DNA from: Nitrospira sp.
GTDB taxonomy: Bacteria > Nitrospirota > Nitrospiria > Nitrospirales > Nitrospiraceae
Assembly (NCBI GenBank): GCA_030653545.1
Contig: JAURZE010000016.1
Location: 1-62,311 of the forward strand
Reading direction: 5' to 3'
Length of the DNA: 62,311 nucleotides
Of this stretch, positions 46,381-62,311 are shown one piece after another (position 1 is the stretch's first letter; the number at the start of each line of letters is the position of its first letter). A program made the translations under genes and the position numbers. The notes under the pieces are model-generated. The model saw nothing but the letters and a program-made list of their open reading frames with translations. It was not told the origin of the DNA and did not search any database.

Positions 46381-47457
46381 TTATCGCAACTTCAACGTGC
46401 TGAGGCTCAATAAGGCCAACAGGATGGCGATGATCCAAAGCCGGACCACGACTTTCGGTTCTTCCCACCCCTTCATCTCAAAATGATGATGAATCGGGGC
46501 CATCAAGAAGATCCGTTTCCCGCGCGACTTAAACGACACGACTTGGAAAATGACCGACACCGCTTCGATCACGAACACGCCGCCGACCAGCAGCAGCAAC
46601 AATTCATGCTTGCTGATGACGGCGACCGTGCCGAGGGCGGCGCCGAGCGGAAGCGACCCCACATCGCCCATGAACACAGAAGCGGGATAGGTGTTGAACC
46701 AGAGGAACCCGAGACTCGACCCCAAAATAGCCGCCGTAAACACGGCAATTTCACCGGCGTTTTCGATGTGGGGAATCAGCAGGTAGTCCGACATCAATCG
46801 GTGCCCGGCAACGTAGGCCACAATCGTATACGCCAGAGCGGTAATCATCACGGGGCCGATGGCGAGGCCGTCGAGGCCGTCGGTCAGATTCACGGCATTG
46901 GAACTTCCCACGATGACGAGCACGGCGAAGACGATGTAGAACCAGCCCAGATCCGGGGTGAAGTTCTTGAAGAACGGCACACTCAGCTTCGTCGTATACC
47001 CGGGAAGAAAGTACAGCGTGAGCGCAATCGCCGAAGCGATCGCGACTTGCGCGGCAAACTTCTGCGACGCCGACAGTCCCTTCGATTGCCGCTTGATGAA
47101 TTTGAGGTAGTCGTCGGCGAACCCGATCGCGCCGAACCCCACCATCGCCGCGAGGACCAGCCACACATACGGTTTCGTAATGTCAGCCCACAGCAGCGTA
47201 GAGAGGACCACCGCAAAGAGAATGAGGATCCCGCCCATCGTGGGGGTCCCGCTCTTCACCAGATGACTCTTGGGCCCGTCGTCGCGGATCTGCTGGCCCA
47301 ACTTGATTTCTTGCAGCTTGCGGATGAGCCACGGGGCCAGAATAAACGCGATGAGAAACGCCGTGACCGCCGCATAAATGATGCGGAAGCTTTGATAGCG
47401 AAAAACGTTCAGGAACGAGAATTCGGTGTGGAGTGGATACAGCCAGTTATACAGCAT
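46381..47457 (-). CDS. mraY: Phospho-MurNAc-pentapeptide translocase
   Basis: A 358-residue membrane enzyme with about ten helices that forms lipid I. Signatures: [13 protein letters not shown], the Asp-rich [45 protein letters not shown], and the triple-His [12 protein letters not shown]. Full length. It follows murF by 63 bases. Confidence 0.97.
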
Positions 47458-47520
47458 AAGACGACCGTCATACCGACGCCGGGGGCTTGCAGCGCCGAGT
47501 CCGTTTCTGCCCCTGAATAG

Positions 47521-49011
47521 TTACGATGCCTTCTTCGAGACCCGCTTCATGCCTTGCAGCGCGCCGACCACCTGCTCCATCTTCATGCCGCGCGACGCCT
47601 TGACCAACACCACATCACCGGAGACTGCCATGGCTTTGACCTCCGCTGCGGCGGCGGTTGCATCGGGCAGTTCGAGAATGTTCGTCGGCTCCATCCCGGC
47701 CCGACGCGCGCCTTCCGCCAGGCCGCGCCCCAACGTCCCGCAGGCGATCAACTGCGAGATGCCCTGCTGCGCCACAAATGCCCCGACCTCTTCGTGCATC
47801 CGCATCGCGCCCGCGCCGAGTTCCAGCATATCGCCCAATACCGCAATGGTCCTCCGTCCGGCGCCGGACTGAGCCAGCAGTTGCACCGCCGCCTTCATCG
47901 ACGCGGGATTGGCGTTATAGCAATCGTTGATCACGCGGATCCCGTGGCTCACGACAACCTGCGACCGCATCGCGGCAGGACGGAATCGGGAGAGCCCCTG
48001 CGCAATGACGGCGCCGGATACGCCGAGCACCGTTCCAACAGCCGCGGCAGCCAAGGCATTGGTCACATTGTGAGAGCCCTGCACCTTGATTCGCACGATG
48101 GTGTGCCGGACCTTCCCCGGCAGGAGCAACCGGAAAATCGTCCCATCCCGTCCGTCCGACTTTTCGTGCAATGCCTGCACATCGGCTTTCGGCGAATAGC
48201 CGAACGACACCACACGACACTGAGCCCGCGCCGCCAGGTAGTCGAAATACGGATCATCGGCGTTCAGAATGGCTGTTCCGTCCGGAGGAAGCAGATCGAG
48301 CAACTCCGCCTTCGCCTGCGCCGATCCTTCCATACTGCCGAAAAACTCCAGGTGATCAGGCCCGATATTCGTGATAATGCCGATGGTCGGGCGGGCGATT
48401 TCACACAGGCGCGTCGTCTGCCCGAGGTTATCGACACCCATTTCGATGACAGCCGCTTCATGCCGGCCCGTCAATCTCAAGAGCGTGTGAGGAACTCCGA
48501 TCCGGTTATTGAAATTACTTTCGGTCTTCAAGACACGCCAGCGCTGTCCCATCACACTCGCAACCATTTCCTTCGTGGTGGTCTTCCCGTTGCTGCCCGT
48601 CACCGCCACCAGCGGAATGTCGAACCGGCTTCGGTGATGCGTCGCCAGCTGCTGATAGGCAAACAACGGATCCCGCACGCCCAAAATGAAGGGGGAAGAC
48701 GACTTTAAGCCGGCCTTCAGGAGCGCGGAGGGCACCGCATAGTTGTCATGCACGATGGCACCGACCGCCCCGCGGGACAGAGCCTTCGCCACATAGTCAT
48801 GTCCGTCGAATTTGTCGCCGCGAATGGCGATGAAGAGATCGCCGGCGCGGATCGCCCGCGAATCGAGGCTGAGCCGTCGAATGCGCTGTTTCGCCCAACG
48901 GGACGCATCGCCCGAAAGCATTTTTACGCTGATCACTTCTCGAAGTTCTTCGCCGGTTAAGAGCGGCATGGGCATCCCAATCTGTGACAGAGCCCCATTC
49001 GAATCAGGCAC
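47521..49011 (-). CDS. murF: UDP-MurNAc-tripeptide-D-alanyl-D-alanine ligase
   Basis: A 496-residue Mur ligase adding the D-Ala-D-Ala dipeptide. ATP loop AVTGSNGKTTTKEMVASV, the carbamylated-Lys region, NADDPYF, and INDCYNANPASMKAAVQLL are visible. The first start is a GTG at 49011 that overlaps murE by 8 bases; ATGs at 48975 and 48969 are possible and nearer the conserved part. Confidence 0.95.
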   Translation of the reverse strand: MPDSNGALSQIGMPMPLLTGEELREVISVKMLSGDASRWAKQRIRRLSLDSRAIRAGDLFIAIRGDKFDGHDYVAKALSRGAVGAIVHDNYAVPSALLKAGLKSSSPFILGVRDPLFAYQQLATHHRSRFDIPLVAVTGSNGKTTTKEMVASVMGQRWRVLKTESNFNNRIGVPHTLLRLTGRHEAAVIEMGVDNLGQTTRLCEIARPTIGIITNIGPDHLEFFGSMEGSAQAKAELLDLLPPDGTAILNADDPYFDYLAARAQCRVVSFGYSPKADVQALHEKSDGRDGTIFRLLLPGKVRHTIVRIKVQGSHNVTNALAAAAVGTVLGVSGAVIAQGLSRFRPAAMRSQVVVSHGIRVINDCYNANPASMKAAVQLLAQSGAGRRTIAVLGDMLELGAGAMRMHEEVGAFVAQQGISQLIACGTLGRGLAEGARRAGMEPTNILELPDATAAAAEVKAMAVSGDVVLVKASRGMKMEQVVGALQGMKRVSKKAS

Positions 49012-58587: not shown

Positions 58588-58603
58588 GCGGCGCATCCTA
58601 ACA
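58460..58603. repeat. Direct repeat, copy A (cstA 5' end)
   Basis: This 144-base stretch, covering the first 43 codons of cstA and about 15 bases before them, is repeated in the same orientation at 59251-59394. The outermost CTTTCATGCGGCGCATCCTAACA at the right end is identical in both (quoted in part: GCGGCGCATCCTAACA). Third-base differences dominate elsewhere, so the copies are old and were under coding selection for a time. Confidence 0.8.
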
Positions 58604-58720
58604 ACCCGCCGGCTGCTTGTAAATCAAGCCCCTTCCCGCTATTCTGACGAGGTAAGACACGCCTGAAGAGGCATCCGGCTTGAGGCTTCCCAACCCAGGC
58701 GTTCACAGTGAGAGGTGTCC

Positions 58721-58906
58721 ATGCCTTCCGCCAAAGAACAAATCGCAAAGATACTTCAAGACCAGCCCGACGACAGTTCGTACGATGAGATCCTGCGAGA
58801 ATTGGCCTTTGCTCGAATGGTCGAGAGAGGGCTGGCCGACTCTGATGCCGGAAGAACGATCAGCCACGAAGAAATGGGACGCCGCATCAAGACATGGCGG
58901 AGCTGA
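58721..58906 (+). CDS. Type II antitoxin, ParD/RelB-like
   Basis: A 61-residue acidic protein, MPSAKEQIAKILQDQPDD at the start and LAFARMVERGLADSDAGRT then ISHEEMGRRIKTW at the end. This composition is common for small antitoxins next to RelE/ParE toxins. It should fold as a short helical or ribbon-helix DNA-binding unit that blocks the toxin and represses the operon. The ATG at 58721 follows GAGAGGTG. It overlaps the toxin gene by 13 bases, usual for such pairs. Confidence 0.8.
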   Translation: MPSAKEQIAKILQDQPDDSSYDEILRELAFARMVERGLADSDAGRTISHEEMGRRIKTWRS

Positions 58907-59190
58907 CCTGGACAGCCGAAGCCCAGCGATGGCTGCTCGACATCCACGATTTCATCGCGCAAGACAATCCCGCCGCCGCAACCCGCACCGTCGAAACGCT
59001 CTACCAAAAAGCTGAGATCCTTCGAGAATTCCCCGAATCAGGCTACCGTTACTGGCAACGACCAGATCGGAACATCCGCATCCTGCTTCACGGCCACTAT
59101 CGCATCGCCTACGTCATGAAAACATCGGGAACGATCGACATCCTCGGTGTCTTCCATGGAGCCCTCAGCATCGACCGTTACTTACTGTAA
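58894..59190 (+). CDS. Type II toxin, RelE/ParE family
   Basis: A 98-residue protein with the ParE/RelE fold pattern: WTAEAQRWLLDIHDFIAQDN (two helices), ILREFPESGYRYWQ, then NIRILLHGHYRIAYVM and TIDILGVFHGALSID, where the Arg in HYRIAY and the His in VFHG are conserved. ParE types poison gyrase and RelE types cut mRNA; this protein looks nearer ParE. With its antitoxin it forms a complete module bracketed by copies of the cstA 5' end. Confidence 0.85.
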   Translation: MAELTWTAEAQRWLLDIHDFIAQDNPAAATRTVETLYQKAEILREFPESGYRYWQRPDRNIRILLHGHYRIAYVMKTSGTIDILGVFHGALSIDRYLL

Positions 59191-59250
59191 CTTGCCCGGC
59201 TACACGATCCCCATTCCTCACACGCAATCTGCAGCAGCCCCGCAACTAGC

Positions 59251-59394
59251 GCCGCCGAGACAATGAACCAAGGCCCGTTCACTTTTTCATGGGGATTGAC
59301 GACGCCGACCACGTGGGCCAACGCCACGGCTCCAAGGACGGAGAGCAGCACCCAGAGCAGATTCACAGCTACTTTCATGCGGCGCATCCTAACA
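59251..59394 (-). pseudogene. Truncated duplicate of the cstA 5' end (direct repeat, copy B)
   Basis: Read leftwards from about 59378 the frame gives MKVAVNLLWVLLSVLGAVAL then AHVVGVVNPHEKVNGPW, parallel to the CstA N-terminus. It diverges after about 43 codons into unrelated residues that stop at 59178. It is the second copy of the 58460-58603 repeat. It cannot make a transporter. The 330 bases between the toxin and the next gene hold nothing else. Confidence 0.8.
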
Positions 59395-59528
59395 TTCACA
59401 AATGAGACAGACGCAGCACAGGAGCCCCCTGAGATTGCAGGTTGACACCTGCTCTAGTTAAACGTAGGCTTTCACTAGCCCGACATGAAAAATTCTGCTC
59501 TCACATTTTTTCCTCAGAATTTCTAACC

Positions 59529-59897
59529 ATGAGCGTCCTTACAATCGATCAATGCCACGCAGCCTTAGACGCTCTCCTTCTGCGCTATTCAAAACTTTTA
59601 CTAAGTGATGCAAACGAAGCAGAGACTCGCCTCAAGGTTATAGACAAGGTCCTGAAAGAAGTGCTCGGCTGGCATGAGGAGGACCTCACTGTAGAAGAGA
59701 GATGCTCCGAAGACTCGAAGACTGTTTTTGCCGATTACATTGTCCGAACTGCAACCACTAGCCTGATTGTCGAAGCGAAAAAGCTGGGGCGACATTCGCC
59801 TTACCAACGAATCAAAAATCTGGAAAACTGGGTGGCGTTCTCCGAGAAGGGGAAGTTGGAGAGGCAATTCGTCAAGTTCGTGATTACTGCCGTATGA
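59529..59897 (+). pseudogene. Nuclease-NTPase gene, 5' part (HsdR-N-like nuclease domain), frameshifted
   Basis: The first 86 codons encode a PD-(D/E)xK-type domain like the HsdR N-terminus: AETRLKVIDKVLKEVLGW, VEERCSED, then the catalytic set Asp69 in FADYIV and Glu82/Lys84 in LIVEAKK. After CTGGGG at 59784-59789 the frame should shift by one base: the other frame then reads ATFALPTNQKSGKLGG, VLREGEVGEAIRQVRDYC and straight into the next gene. So a single G seems to be missing from the run at 59786-59789. The 36 residues from there to the stop at 59897 look non-native. The region is richer in A and T than the rest. Confidence 0.75.
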
Positions 59898-62014
59898 AGC
59901 ACATCCCATTCGCGGTAGTAACAAATGGAAGCGCTTGGATTGTTTTCCCAGCCATTAGAACTGATGAGGTTACATTTGAAAATACTCAAGCTCGGATTTT
60001 TCGGGATCTTGGGGATATCAAAACCAGAATAGTTGAATTTTGGAAACTACTCTCAAGACAACGTGTTGCGGAAGGCAATCTGGAGCACGAGCTTCTTAGC
60101 CCCGAGAAAAATGCTTCTGCCAGGCGTGTTCTTTCTCTAGTAAGAGAACCAGGATTCAGGCTGGGACGCAATGCACTCTACGAACACATAGAGCCTGCGG
60201 TAAACGCTGCTCTGACTGATGAAGCCTTGCTGAATGACCCTGAGGCTTTAAAGCTTTGTTACGTCAAAAGTAGTGAACGACTCAAGTACGATTCACGGCT
60301 TCAAATGGTTGTTAGCGACGCCAAGACATACCTTGGCCATAAAACAACGCGCGTTCGATCGAGAAAATCCCAAGGTTACCTTGAAACTAAAATCACACAG
60401 GATGTTCCTGGCAGACCGAGATTTATATTAGTCCTCGGCGCGGTCGGATCTGGCAAGACAACATTTTTGCACTATACAAGAAAAGTTTCTGCAGCCTCCC
60501 AGATCGACGGCAAAGTTCTCTGGCTATATATTGACTTCAAAAAAACGACTCAGAATCAGAACCCTCGCCAATTCCTCTATGAGGAACTCCGATCTATCAT
60601 AGAAACAGAGAAAGAATTCGAGCTTGGCGACTGGGGCAAATCTATTATGCCTGCCTATGCGGAAACCATTAGCAACCTAGAACGCGGCCCACTATTTCTT
60701 CTCAAAAAATCAGACAAAGCGGCTTTTGACAAAGAAATTGCCAGCACTGTCATGAAGGATAGAGAAGCCCTGGTTCCATACGTTGAAAAGATACTTCGGC
60801 ATGCTGTTAGCACTAGACCTGGATTCCTTGTCATCGATAATGTTGATCAAATCGATAGCGATGAGAGACAGAACGAAATCTTCTCTGAGGCTCAAGCTGC
60901 CGCCCAAAGAATGGGCATCAACATTATAATGTCCCTCCGGGAATCAACCTTCCTCCGTCATCGGAGTTCTCCTGTTTTTGACGCATTTCAATTTGACTCT
61001 CTTTACATCGATCCTCCGAGTGTGCTCCCTGTACTTTCAAGAAGATTTACCTATGCGAGACAGGTTCTTGCAGGCAGGAAGGCCGAACTCACACTTGAAT
61101 CTGGCATTCATCTAAAGGTCCCTGACATATCTGTTTTTTTCAATATTGTTGCCCAATCGGTTTTGGCTTCCGACTCAGGGTTCATGATTGAGATGTTATC
61201 TGGTGGGGATATTAGAAGGGGACTCTCTCTAGTACGGGAGTTCTTGTCGAGCGGTCATACCACCGCTGACCGTGCACTAAGTGCTTACATTAGAGATGGA
61301 AAGTATAAATTCCCTCCTCATGAAATCTTCAAAGGTGCCGTGCTCGGCAAAAGAACCGTATACAGAGAAGAGGAATCTGCTCTCCTGAATATCTATGACT
61401 CAAAGCTCGACAATGAGACGCTACAATTGCTTCGCTTTCAGCTACTCGCAAGGCTGGTTGACTTAGCTGCAGATGCAACATTTGAGGGCATAACCGTTTC
61501 AGACATCATTGACCAACTGCATGTGATTGGTGTGCCGAGCGGACTAGTTGAGAGTTGCCTCAGGACCTTGCTGGACTCACGGACGGTCCGTACGGCGGAC
61601 GGATTGTCACTTTCACCTCAGTCTAAAATTATTCCAAACAGACTAGCCGGCTACCTGATCCATGAATTAGGAAGCTCATTCAATTACTTCGAGATGTGCC
61701 TAGTAGATTCTTACATTTTTCAAAAAGAATTTTGGACGAGGATTTCTGACCTTACTACCCAAATTCAAAATGCACCCGATGAAATTACTGGAGTCAAATT
61801 GAGAGTCGATCGCGCTCGACTATACATAAGATACCTTTCATCCATAGAAGAAAGATGGATCGTCGAGTGTAACCGAAGAGGGATTGGAGACTCTTGGGGT
61901 CACCAATGGATTGAAACAGAGACTCAAAAGCGCCTCGAAGATGACATGAGCAAAGCCCTTACATCGGCGGAGAATATGGCCCGAAGAAGAGTAAGAGAGG
62001 GGAATCACCACTAG
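59894..62014 (+). CDS. Nuclease-NTPase gene, 3' part: P-loop NTPase with C-terminal helical domains
   Basis: A 706-residue frame from the ATG at 59894. It opens HIPFAVVTNGSAWIVF, the end of a restriction-type nuclease domain, so it is probably the continuation of the gene begun at 59529 (about 828 residues once one base is restored). The NTPase has Walker A GAVGSGKTT (182-190), Walker B FLVIDNVDQ (301-309) and a later MSLREST (about 332) that may be a sensor. About 300 helical residues follow with no motif I can name. The plan nuclease-NTPase-effector/sensor suggests DNA or phage defence. Lower GC and the adjoining TA pair and IS ends point to horizontal transfer. Confidence 0.7.
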   Translation: MKHIPFAVVTNGSAWIVFPAIRTDEVTFENTQARIFRDLGDIKTRIVEFWKLLSRQRVAEGNLEHELLSPEKNASARRVLSLVREPGFRLGRNALYEHIEPAVNAALTDEALLNDPEALKLCYVKSSERLKYDSRLQMVVSDAKTYLGHKTTRVRSRKSQGYLETKITQDVPGRPRFILVLGAVGSGKTTFLHYTRKVSAASQIDGKVLWLYIDFKKTTQNQNPRQFLYEELRSIIETEKEFELGDWGKSIMPAYAETISNLERGPLFLLKKSDKAAFDKEIASTVMKDREALVPYVEKILRHAVSTRPGFLVIDNVDQIDSDERQNEIFSEAQAAAQRMGINIIMSLRESTFLRHRSSPVFDAFQFDSLYIDPPSVLPVLSRRFTYARQVLAGRKAELTLESGIHLKVPDISVFFNIVAQSVLASDSGFMIEMLSGGDIRRGLSLVREFLSSGHTTADRALSAYIRDGKYKFPPHEIFKGAVLGKRTVYREEESALLNIYDSKLDNETLQLLRFQLLARLVDLAADATFEGITVSDIIDQLHVIGVPSGLVESCLRTLLDSRTVRTADGLSLSPQSKIIPNRLAGYLIHELGSSFNYFEMCLVDSYIFQKEFWTRISDLTTQIQNAPDEITGVKLRVDRARLYIRYLSSIEERWIVECNRRGIGDSWGHQWIETETQKRLEDDMSKALTSAENMARRRVREGNHH

Positions 62015-62202: not shown

Positions 62203-62311
62203 TTAAGCCCGGTTTGACACGGCTTCAAACGCCTCCGGACTGACCCCCTTCAGATGACTGTGTCGGCGGGTGCGATTATAGAACATCTCGATGTACTCGG
62301 CGATCTCGGCT
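62203..62311 (-). mobile_element. IS3-family transposase OrfB, C-terminal fragment running off the window
   Basis: The minus strand encodes 35 residues ending the gene: AEIAEYIEMFYNRTRRHSHL then KGVSPEAFEAVSNRA and TAA at 62203-62205. The YNRxRRHSxLxGxSPxxFE pattern is the hallmark end of IS3-family (DDE) transposases, with the catalytic Glu lost off the window edge. The right end of the element probably lies near 62165-62200 (TGGACTTCCCAGCC...TGTGGACA). The gap 62015-62164 shows nothing else. Confidence 0.85.

Follow-up and report, generated by a model that had tools for sequence, protein, structure and literature searches.

A frame-broken gene in Nitrospira points to a putative single-protein nuclease-AAA+ defence family

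Among the described systems closest to the gene family considered here are the HsdR subunits of type I restriction-modification systems, whose N-terminal nuclease fold and motifs (named E, D, ExK and QxxxY), as in 3h1t and EcoR124I, are common to the family. However, HsdR couples its nuclease to an SF2 translocase motor and works with HsdM and HsdS partners, whereas the family motor is an AAA+ ATPase of Orc/Cdc6 type, and neither partner is annotated within 3–12 kb of the gene in 14 distinct named contexts, for which the plasmid gene tables are incomplete. The type IIG enzymes BpuSI and DrdV contain the same nuclease fold fused to a methyltransferase that the family does not carry. The name of a DefenseFinder entry, FS_HsdR_like, suggests a lone HsdR-like defence protein. 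On the motor side, the AAA+ module resembles that of RdrA of RADAR (Z 13.0 over 342 residues, 6.3 Å) and of BrxC of BREX (Z 11.8 over 322 residues, 7.7 Å). In contrast to RADAR, the family carries its own nuclease, and the annotations of the named contexts that were viewed show no RdrB-like deaminase (again with incomplete plasmid gene tables); in contrast to BREX it is a lone gene, and its annotated neighbours include no further BREX component. RdrA is presented as a defence ATPase (PMC9994260). For Hachiman (HamAB), a DNA-sensing motor is outlined as releasing a nuclease (PMC12278908), and this offers a works-like model for the family; HamAB itself consists of two proteins with a helicase motor.

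The gene under study lies in a 62,311-nucleotide stretch of a Nitrospira sp. genome (hereafter, the window), where the ORF list splits it into two overlapping frames, 59442–59897 (151 aa from TTG) and a 706-aa frame downstream; the conserved protein begins at ATG 59529, from which the upstream ORF is counted in Table 1. The initial annotation described a split gene encoding one nuclease-NTPase protein, and both points were borne out: Asp69 and Glu82-x-Lys84 are present, and VVTNGSAWIVF, GAVGSGKTT and FLVIDNVDQ all occur in the second frame, which after residue 85 (59783) reads AGATFALPTNQKSGKLGG...GEAIRQVRDYC and runs on into the 706-aa ORF, while intact relatives encode the whole protein as a single ORF. 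A natural two-protein system starting at 59894 was considered and rejected: the same place holds Thr in the relative L016, the same Met sits within an open frame in G149, a genome of the same genus, and relatives are single-ORF. The GC content is 46% for the gene and 58% for the window. The promoter-like element is common to the window and G149 despite much divergence in the rest of the leader. Judged from sequence comparison and structural models, the locus is probably a recently frame-broken copy of a lone-gene nuclease-AAA+ defence protein. Seen by itself, this damaged copy looks like a case of ordinary decay; the interest lies with the family, which is uncharacterised.

Table 1. Features of the split gene, in window coordinates.
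Feature	Position	Strand	Remarks
Promoter-like element TTGACA-17-TAGGCT	59442..59470	+	Putative: recognised by eye in the window/G149 alignment, absent from the consensus-scan list
Upstream ORF	59529..59897	+	122 aa; conserved-protein share is 59529–59783 only, residues 1–85 with E30, D69, E82, K84
Frame-change site	59777..59803	+	Adjoins the Lys84-Lys85 codons; an 8-pair hairpin comes after it, 59785–59803
Remaining HsdR-type nuclease domain, second frame	59783..60097	+	Includes Gln116-x3-Tyr120 (59873–59887); end set by residue offset from L016 residue 190
Downstream ORF	59894..62014	+	706 aa as the gene now reads; ATG not the natural start
Walker A, GAVGSGKTT	60437..60463	+	
Walker B, FLVIDNVDQ	60834..60860	+	
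SGGDIRR	61199..61219	+	Holds an arginine invariant in alignment A1 (Arg563 of L016); sensor-2-like, role inferred
Winged-helix region	61496..61672	+	Corresponds to L016 residues 657–715, set by residue offset

A pattern scan over bacterial and archaeal genomes, suited to close relatives only, returned one relative, L016, on an Acidobacteriota MAG contig. L016 is a single 827-aa ORF whose identity to the window protein is 73% for the C part and 71% for the N part, and its contig is called plasmid-like because it also has ParA-like and ParB-like ORFs (recognised by eye). Relatives of L016 are contained in 30 of 72,556 plasmid records and on 22 distinct IMG/VR contigs, one of which (L072) matches the cold-shock part only; the C part had no tblastn match in 50,697 named phage records. 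Intact relatives consist of one ORF of about 800–870 aa, or of about 975 aa in a second clade (L025, L027, L044, L045 and L046), in which C-terminal cold-shock domains replace the helical tail. The ten members of alignment A1 are all single-ORF and all keep the Walker A and B residues, and cold-shock domains are found in two of them by PHROG and in three of the 14 members of alignment A2 by Pfam CSD. A near full-length profile match to PHROG 14719, a group labelled ‘function unknown’, was obtained for L016 (E 5.8e-126, residues 6–778), and the assignment holds for 10/10 A1 relatives. A2 includes two frame-broken members, L039 and L041, and one, L006, that is truncated at its contig end. Other broken relatives, besides L039 and L041, are a Serratia copy cut by an IS and E. 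coli C8, and the frame of L071 stops at 537 aa although the match continues. The E. coli prophage copies L054 and L041 are broken at A and T runs, through either real loss or sequencing error.

Sequence searches of the PDB with the C part and the full-length protein gave nothing beyond P-loop matches among the best 60 of 106. The family had no full-length match in PADLOC 2.0.0, where the matches were partial only: mad8/mad3 matched on the P-loop, and DrmMI matched the N-terminus of L016 and 5/10 relatives. In a literature search with limited coverage of subscription papers, no paper was recognised as describing this family. The family is sparse yet dispersed, with members in Pseudomonadota, in the Acidobacteriota MAG and in the phylum of the window itself, and it very probably consists of a single nuclease-AAA+ protein.

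The nuclease assignment draws on motif conservation, profile comparison and fold. Ten residues (E30, L46, W48, D69, Y70, E82, A83, K84, Q116 and Y120), the annotated Asp69, Glu82 and Lys84 among them, are invariant in 20/20 aligned N-termini, a set that includes near-duplicates and sequences from cut or broken copies (L006, L039, L041, L066 and possibly L071). The N-terminal profile matches the HsdR chain 3h1t (E 7.6e-4), and the Pfam score of L016 for HSDR_N_2 is 25.0 bits, exactly at the cut-off of 25, with the window N part alone below it (E 0.031). A model of the 190-residue N domain (pLDDT 85.7, pTM 0.84) superposes best on HsdR 3h1t (Z 10.2, 122 residues, 4.2 Å), followed by BpuSI (Z 8.5, 145 residues, 4.1 Å), EcoR124I HsdR (Z 8.0, 139 residues, 3.9 Å) and DrdV (Z 7.6), so that the HsdR-like fold proposed from the letters alone is recovered in the model. 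With Foldseek alone, the N domain had no match below E 0.001, 3h1t ranking first at E 0.010. On these grounds, the first 190 residues are assigned to a PD-(D/E)xK nuclease domain of HsdR/BpuSI type.

The remainder of the protein was modelled as part of full-length L016 (827 aa; pLDDT 77.1, pTM 0.63; built on 14 sequences). Its motor aligns over roughly residues 216–694 with Orc/Cdc6, TnsC, RdrA and BrxC, with the highest agreement for Orc/Cdc6 (7jgr_G, Z 14.6, 255 residues, 3.8 Å; 1fnn_A, Z 14.3, 259 residues, 3.7 Å) and then Tn7 TnsC (7mcs_B, Z 13.1, 290 residues, 4.5 Å). The motor is followed by a winged helix at about 657–715 and then by about 110 helical residues. The stretch of about 300 residues that had been left unassigned thus corresponds to the rest of the Orc/Cdc6-like AAA+ module, the winged helix and a short helical tail. 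In Pfam, AAA_22 is the sole NTPase family above its cut-off for the window C part (29.6 bits; cut-off 27), and the families listed are AAA+ families with no helicase family among them. The model would make the motor an Orc1/Cdc6/TnsC-like AAA+ ATPase, a shared fold that does not itself show function.

The frame break separates D69, E82 and K84 on one side from Q116, Y120 and the motor on the other. The protein resumes in the second frame from about 59783, and the 742 codons aligned to L016 hold the terminal stop only. The initial annotation placed the lesion in the GGGG run at 59786–59789, from which one G would be missing, and suggested phase variation there as one possibility. DNA alignment with G149, the nearest relative in frame at the break site, does not bear out the first point and contradicts the second: the run is equally long in the two genomes, and the frame change maps immediately upstream of the run, next to the Lys84-Lys85 codons. 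Because the break lies inside the nuclease, between catalytic motifs, the product of the window copy is expected to be inactive, barring −1 slippage of ribosomes at the lysine codons. For the window compared with G149, dN/dS is 0.056 over 85 codons before the break and 0.023 over 230 codons after it, with synonymous change saturated (dS > 2). Conservation falls in the last 96 codons (dN 0.277, dS saturated), where identity is 59%; in residues 1–196 of the C part it is 91%. By sequence comparison, purifying selection appears to have acted on the gene until recently, and the lesion would for this reason be young, an error, or bypassed.

The possibility that the break is an assembly or base-calling error, the gene being intact and working, is real but not favoured. 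A downstream frame open for 742 codons is in keeping with it, as are the plausibility of a single-base error next to short A/G runs and the lack of an excess of window-specific amino-acid changes (with L016 as outgroup, 5 in the window vs 4 in G149 over the 85 codons before the break, and 3 vs 8 over the 231 codons after it). However, the window gene shows the only frame change among 49 comparable G149 frames, that is, frames with a match of >50% identity in the window, taken stop to stop at >=120 aa with antisense frames counted, and both other copies in the genus are likewise not intact as assembled. The reverse comparison, with 52 window frames, gave one further pair, 47399–47869 on the plus strand, which faces the opposing ORF 47521–49011 and is probably not a gene. 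A hairpin-aided −1 ribosomal slippage at AAA-AAG of the catalytic motif, yielding some full-length protein, is very improbable: one base back after AAG does give EAKKAGATF, the G149 protein at this point, the downstream frame is maintained, and the hairpin downstream has −9.4 kcal/mol and z −3.0 (for a 23-nt stretch picked post hoc), but programmed −1 frameshifting follows an X XXY YYZ heptamer with a spacer of 5–9 nt, whereas the window has G AAA AAG and a spacer of 1 nt, folding over a 60-nt stretch is ordinary (z only −0.83), AAA-AAG are simply lysine codons, and G149, L016 and 15 other relatives are in frame here, so that the two-frame layout is not conserved.

In the genus, three of 79 genomes match (window, G149 and G220), and all three copies are broken or incomplete as assembled. 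The window copy has the frame change; the G149 copy has an in-frame TGA and then a 100-N assembly gap; and the G220 copy, a distant relative situated on another contig, is read in two frames. In the phylum, 6/395 genomes match, the three outside the genus having open frames. The window gene follows a ParE-type toxin-antitoxin (TA) pair (ParE E 5.1e-13; the antitoxin ORF had no Pfam match) and a 5' fragment of cstA. The junction upstream of cstA is also where the G149 copy begins; in G220 the cstA start matches, with no DNA match to the gene beside cstA within the 16 kb examined. A fresh horizontal arrival at the window site was rejected, because the G149 copy shares the cstA junction with saturated synonymous change. 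Of the initial proposal of horizontal acquisition, the acquisition itself fits the patchy family, and a recent date at this site does not. Two further observations concern the surroundings. At 58596–59399, the TA pair separates the full cstA from the 5' cstA fragment (minus strand, about 59250–59395), which has diverged from the full gene, as if the pair came with partial duplication or recombination between relatives. The contig ends inside a minus-strand frame (62203–62310) that resembles, by eye, the C-terminal end of an IS3-type transposase, a possible reason for the break in the contig.

Elsewhere, the gene has been found on diverse mobile elements, and as most relatives were drawn from plasmid and viral collections, the contexts are biased towards such elements. 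The four E. coli loci viewed lie in a Rac-type prophage between DUF1367 and DUF977 genes, one of the four copies being broken. The Klebsiella aerogenes copy adjoins terminase and capsid-packaging genes on a record that is labelled plasmid yet holds rpoD, and the remaining named copies are on twelve plasmids. No recurring partner gene was seen among the contexts viewed, which makes this a lone gene. By annotation, most neighbours are non-defence genes; defence genes adjoin or lie close in 3/17 distinct contexts, of which 14 are named and the others are G198, G399 and G008. Paracoccus has a Tmn relative (E 7.6e-78), Shewanella a type II methyltransferase (E 2.1e-45) and G008 a PLD_Helicase fragment (E 1.2e-70) with a GmrSD_N protein nearby (E 8.1e-20), the first three identified with PADLOC, which was run on nine neighbour proteins from five loci, so that other defence neighbours may be missed. 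Three plasmids (L026, L048 and L053) carry an SOS-response-associated peptidase gene no more than about 8 kb away from the family gene, which may be chance.

Taken together, the family is probably an anti-invader system, with single-protein defence as the best, putative reading. Counting for this reading are the single-ORF relatives, the invariant motifs, the folds, the lone-gene contexts, the three defence neighbourhoods and the purifying selection flanking the break; counting against it are the window gene's own neighbours, namely the ParE-type TA pair and cstA, the small share of contexts with defence genes (three of 17), the bias of the collections towards mobile elements, the empty search of named phage records, the Foldseek result for the N domain and the modest pLDDT of the full model. 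It is unlikely that the family instead serves the mobile element itself, in plasmid competition, replication or repair. The resemblance of the motor to replication initiators and TnsC would suit such a service, as would the cold-shock domains that end the long clade and the finding that every one of the 14 named contexts is a plasmid record or a prophage, a result towards which the collections lean. However, the gene stands alone on unrelated elements and is opposite in orientation to both flanking genes in the four Rac-type prophages viewed, near-identical copies are rare (a near-identity search with the E. coli copy found them in 8/5426 E. coli genomes, all chromosomal), and defence genes adjoin in three contexts. 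That the protein acts as a STAND (Avs-like) receptor, killing the cell once it senses a phage protein, seems quite doubtful. The window C part does score just below the cut-off for nSTAND_NTPase5 (33.2 bits; cut-off 34), as also for AAA_16, and the Foldseek matches of the L016 model include Apaf-1, CED-4 and plant NRC chains. By fold, however, these STAND chains rank lower than Orc/Cdc6, AAA_22 alone is above its cut-off, and the L016 model has just about 110 residues after the winged helix, with no long C-terminal repeat sensor.

The intact chain of about 820 residues runs from an HsdR-type PD-(D/E)xK nuclease through an Orc1/Cdc6/TnsC-like AAA+ ATPase and a winged helix to a short helical tail. 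Under the anti-invader reading, the AAA+ module and winged helix would most likely bind ATP and oligomerise on DNA at invader DNA or at an abnormal DNA state, and the ATP-driven, Orc-like assembly would then unite and place, or release, the HsdR nuclease domains, thereby licensing the cut of that DNA. Domain order, conserved catalytic motifs, folds and lone-gene layout were computed, and it is the mechanism beyond these that we infer. Because no cognate methylase recurs nearby, specificity would come from the sensor or from oligomerisation, and the trigger would be a DNA state or an invader protein. The cold-shock domains in the tail position of the long clade point to nucleic-acid sensing. 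More tentatively, the family could represent a defence class of a new kind, built on an AAA+ ATPase of the replication-initiator type, whose usual task is to load proteins onto DNA. Fused to an HsdR nuclease, it would recognise invading or abnormal DNA by loading onto it and would then cut, the tail (a short helix bundle in one clade, cold-shock domains in another) acting as an exchangeable sensor.

The recognition of one family unites scattered annotations as ‘hypothetical’, ‘P-loop NTPase fold’ and ‘type IV restriction endonuclease’, and a system encoded by one gene lends itself to cloning and testing. That copies are damaged both in one genus and in E. coli suggests a possible cost of carrying the gene. 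If cutting does follow Orc/TnsC-like loading without a methylase, the family would discriminate self from non-self in a manner unlike restriction-modification.
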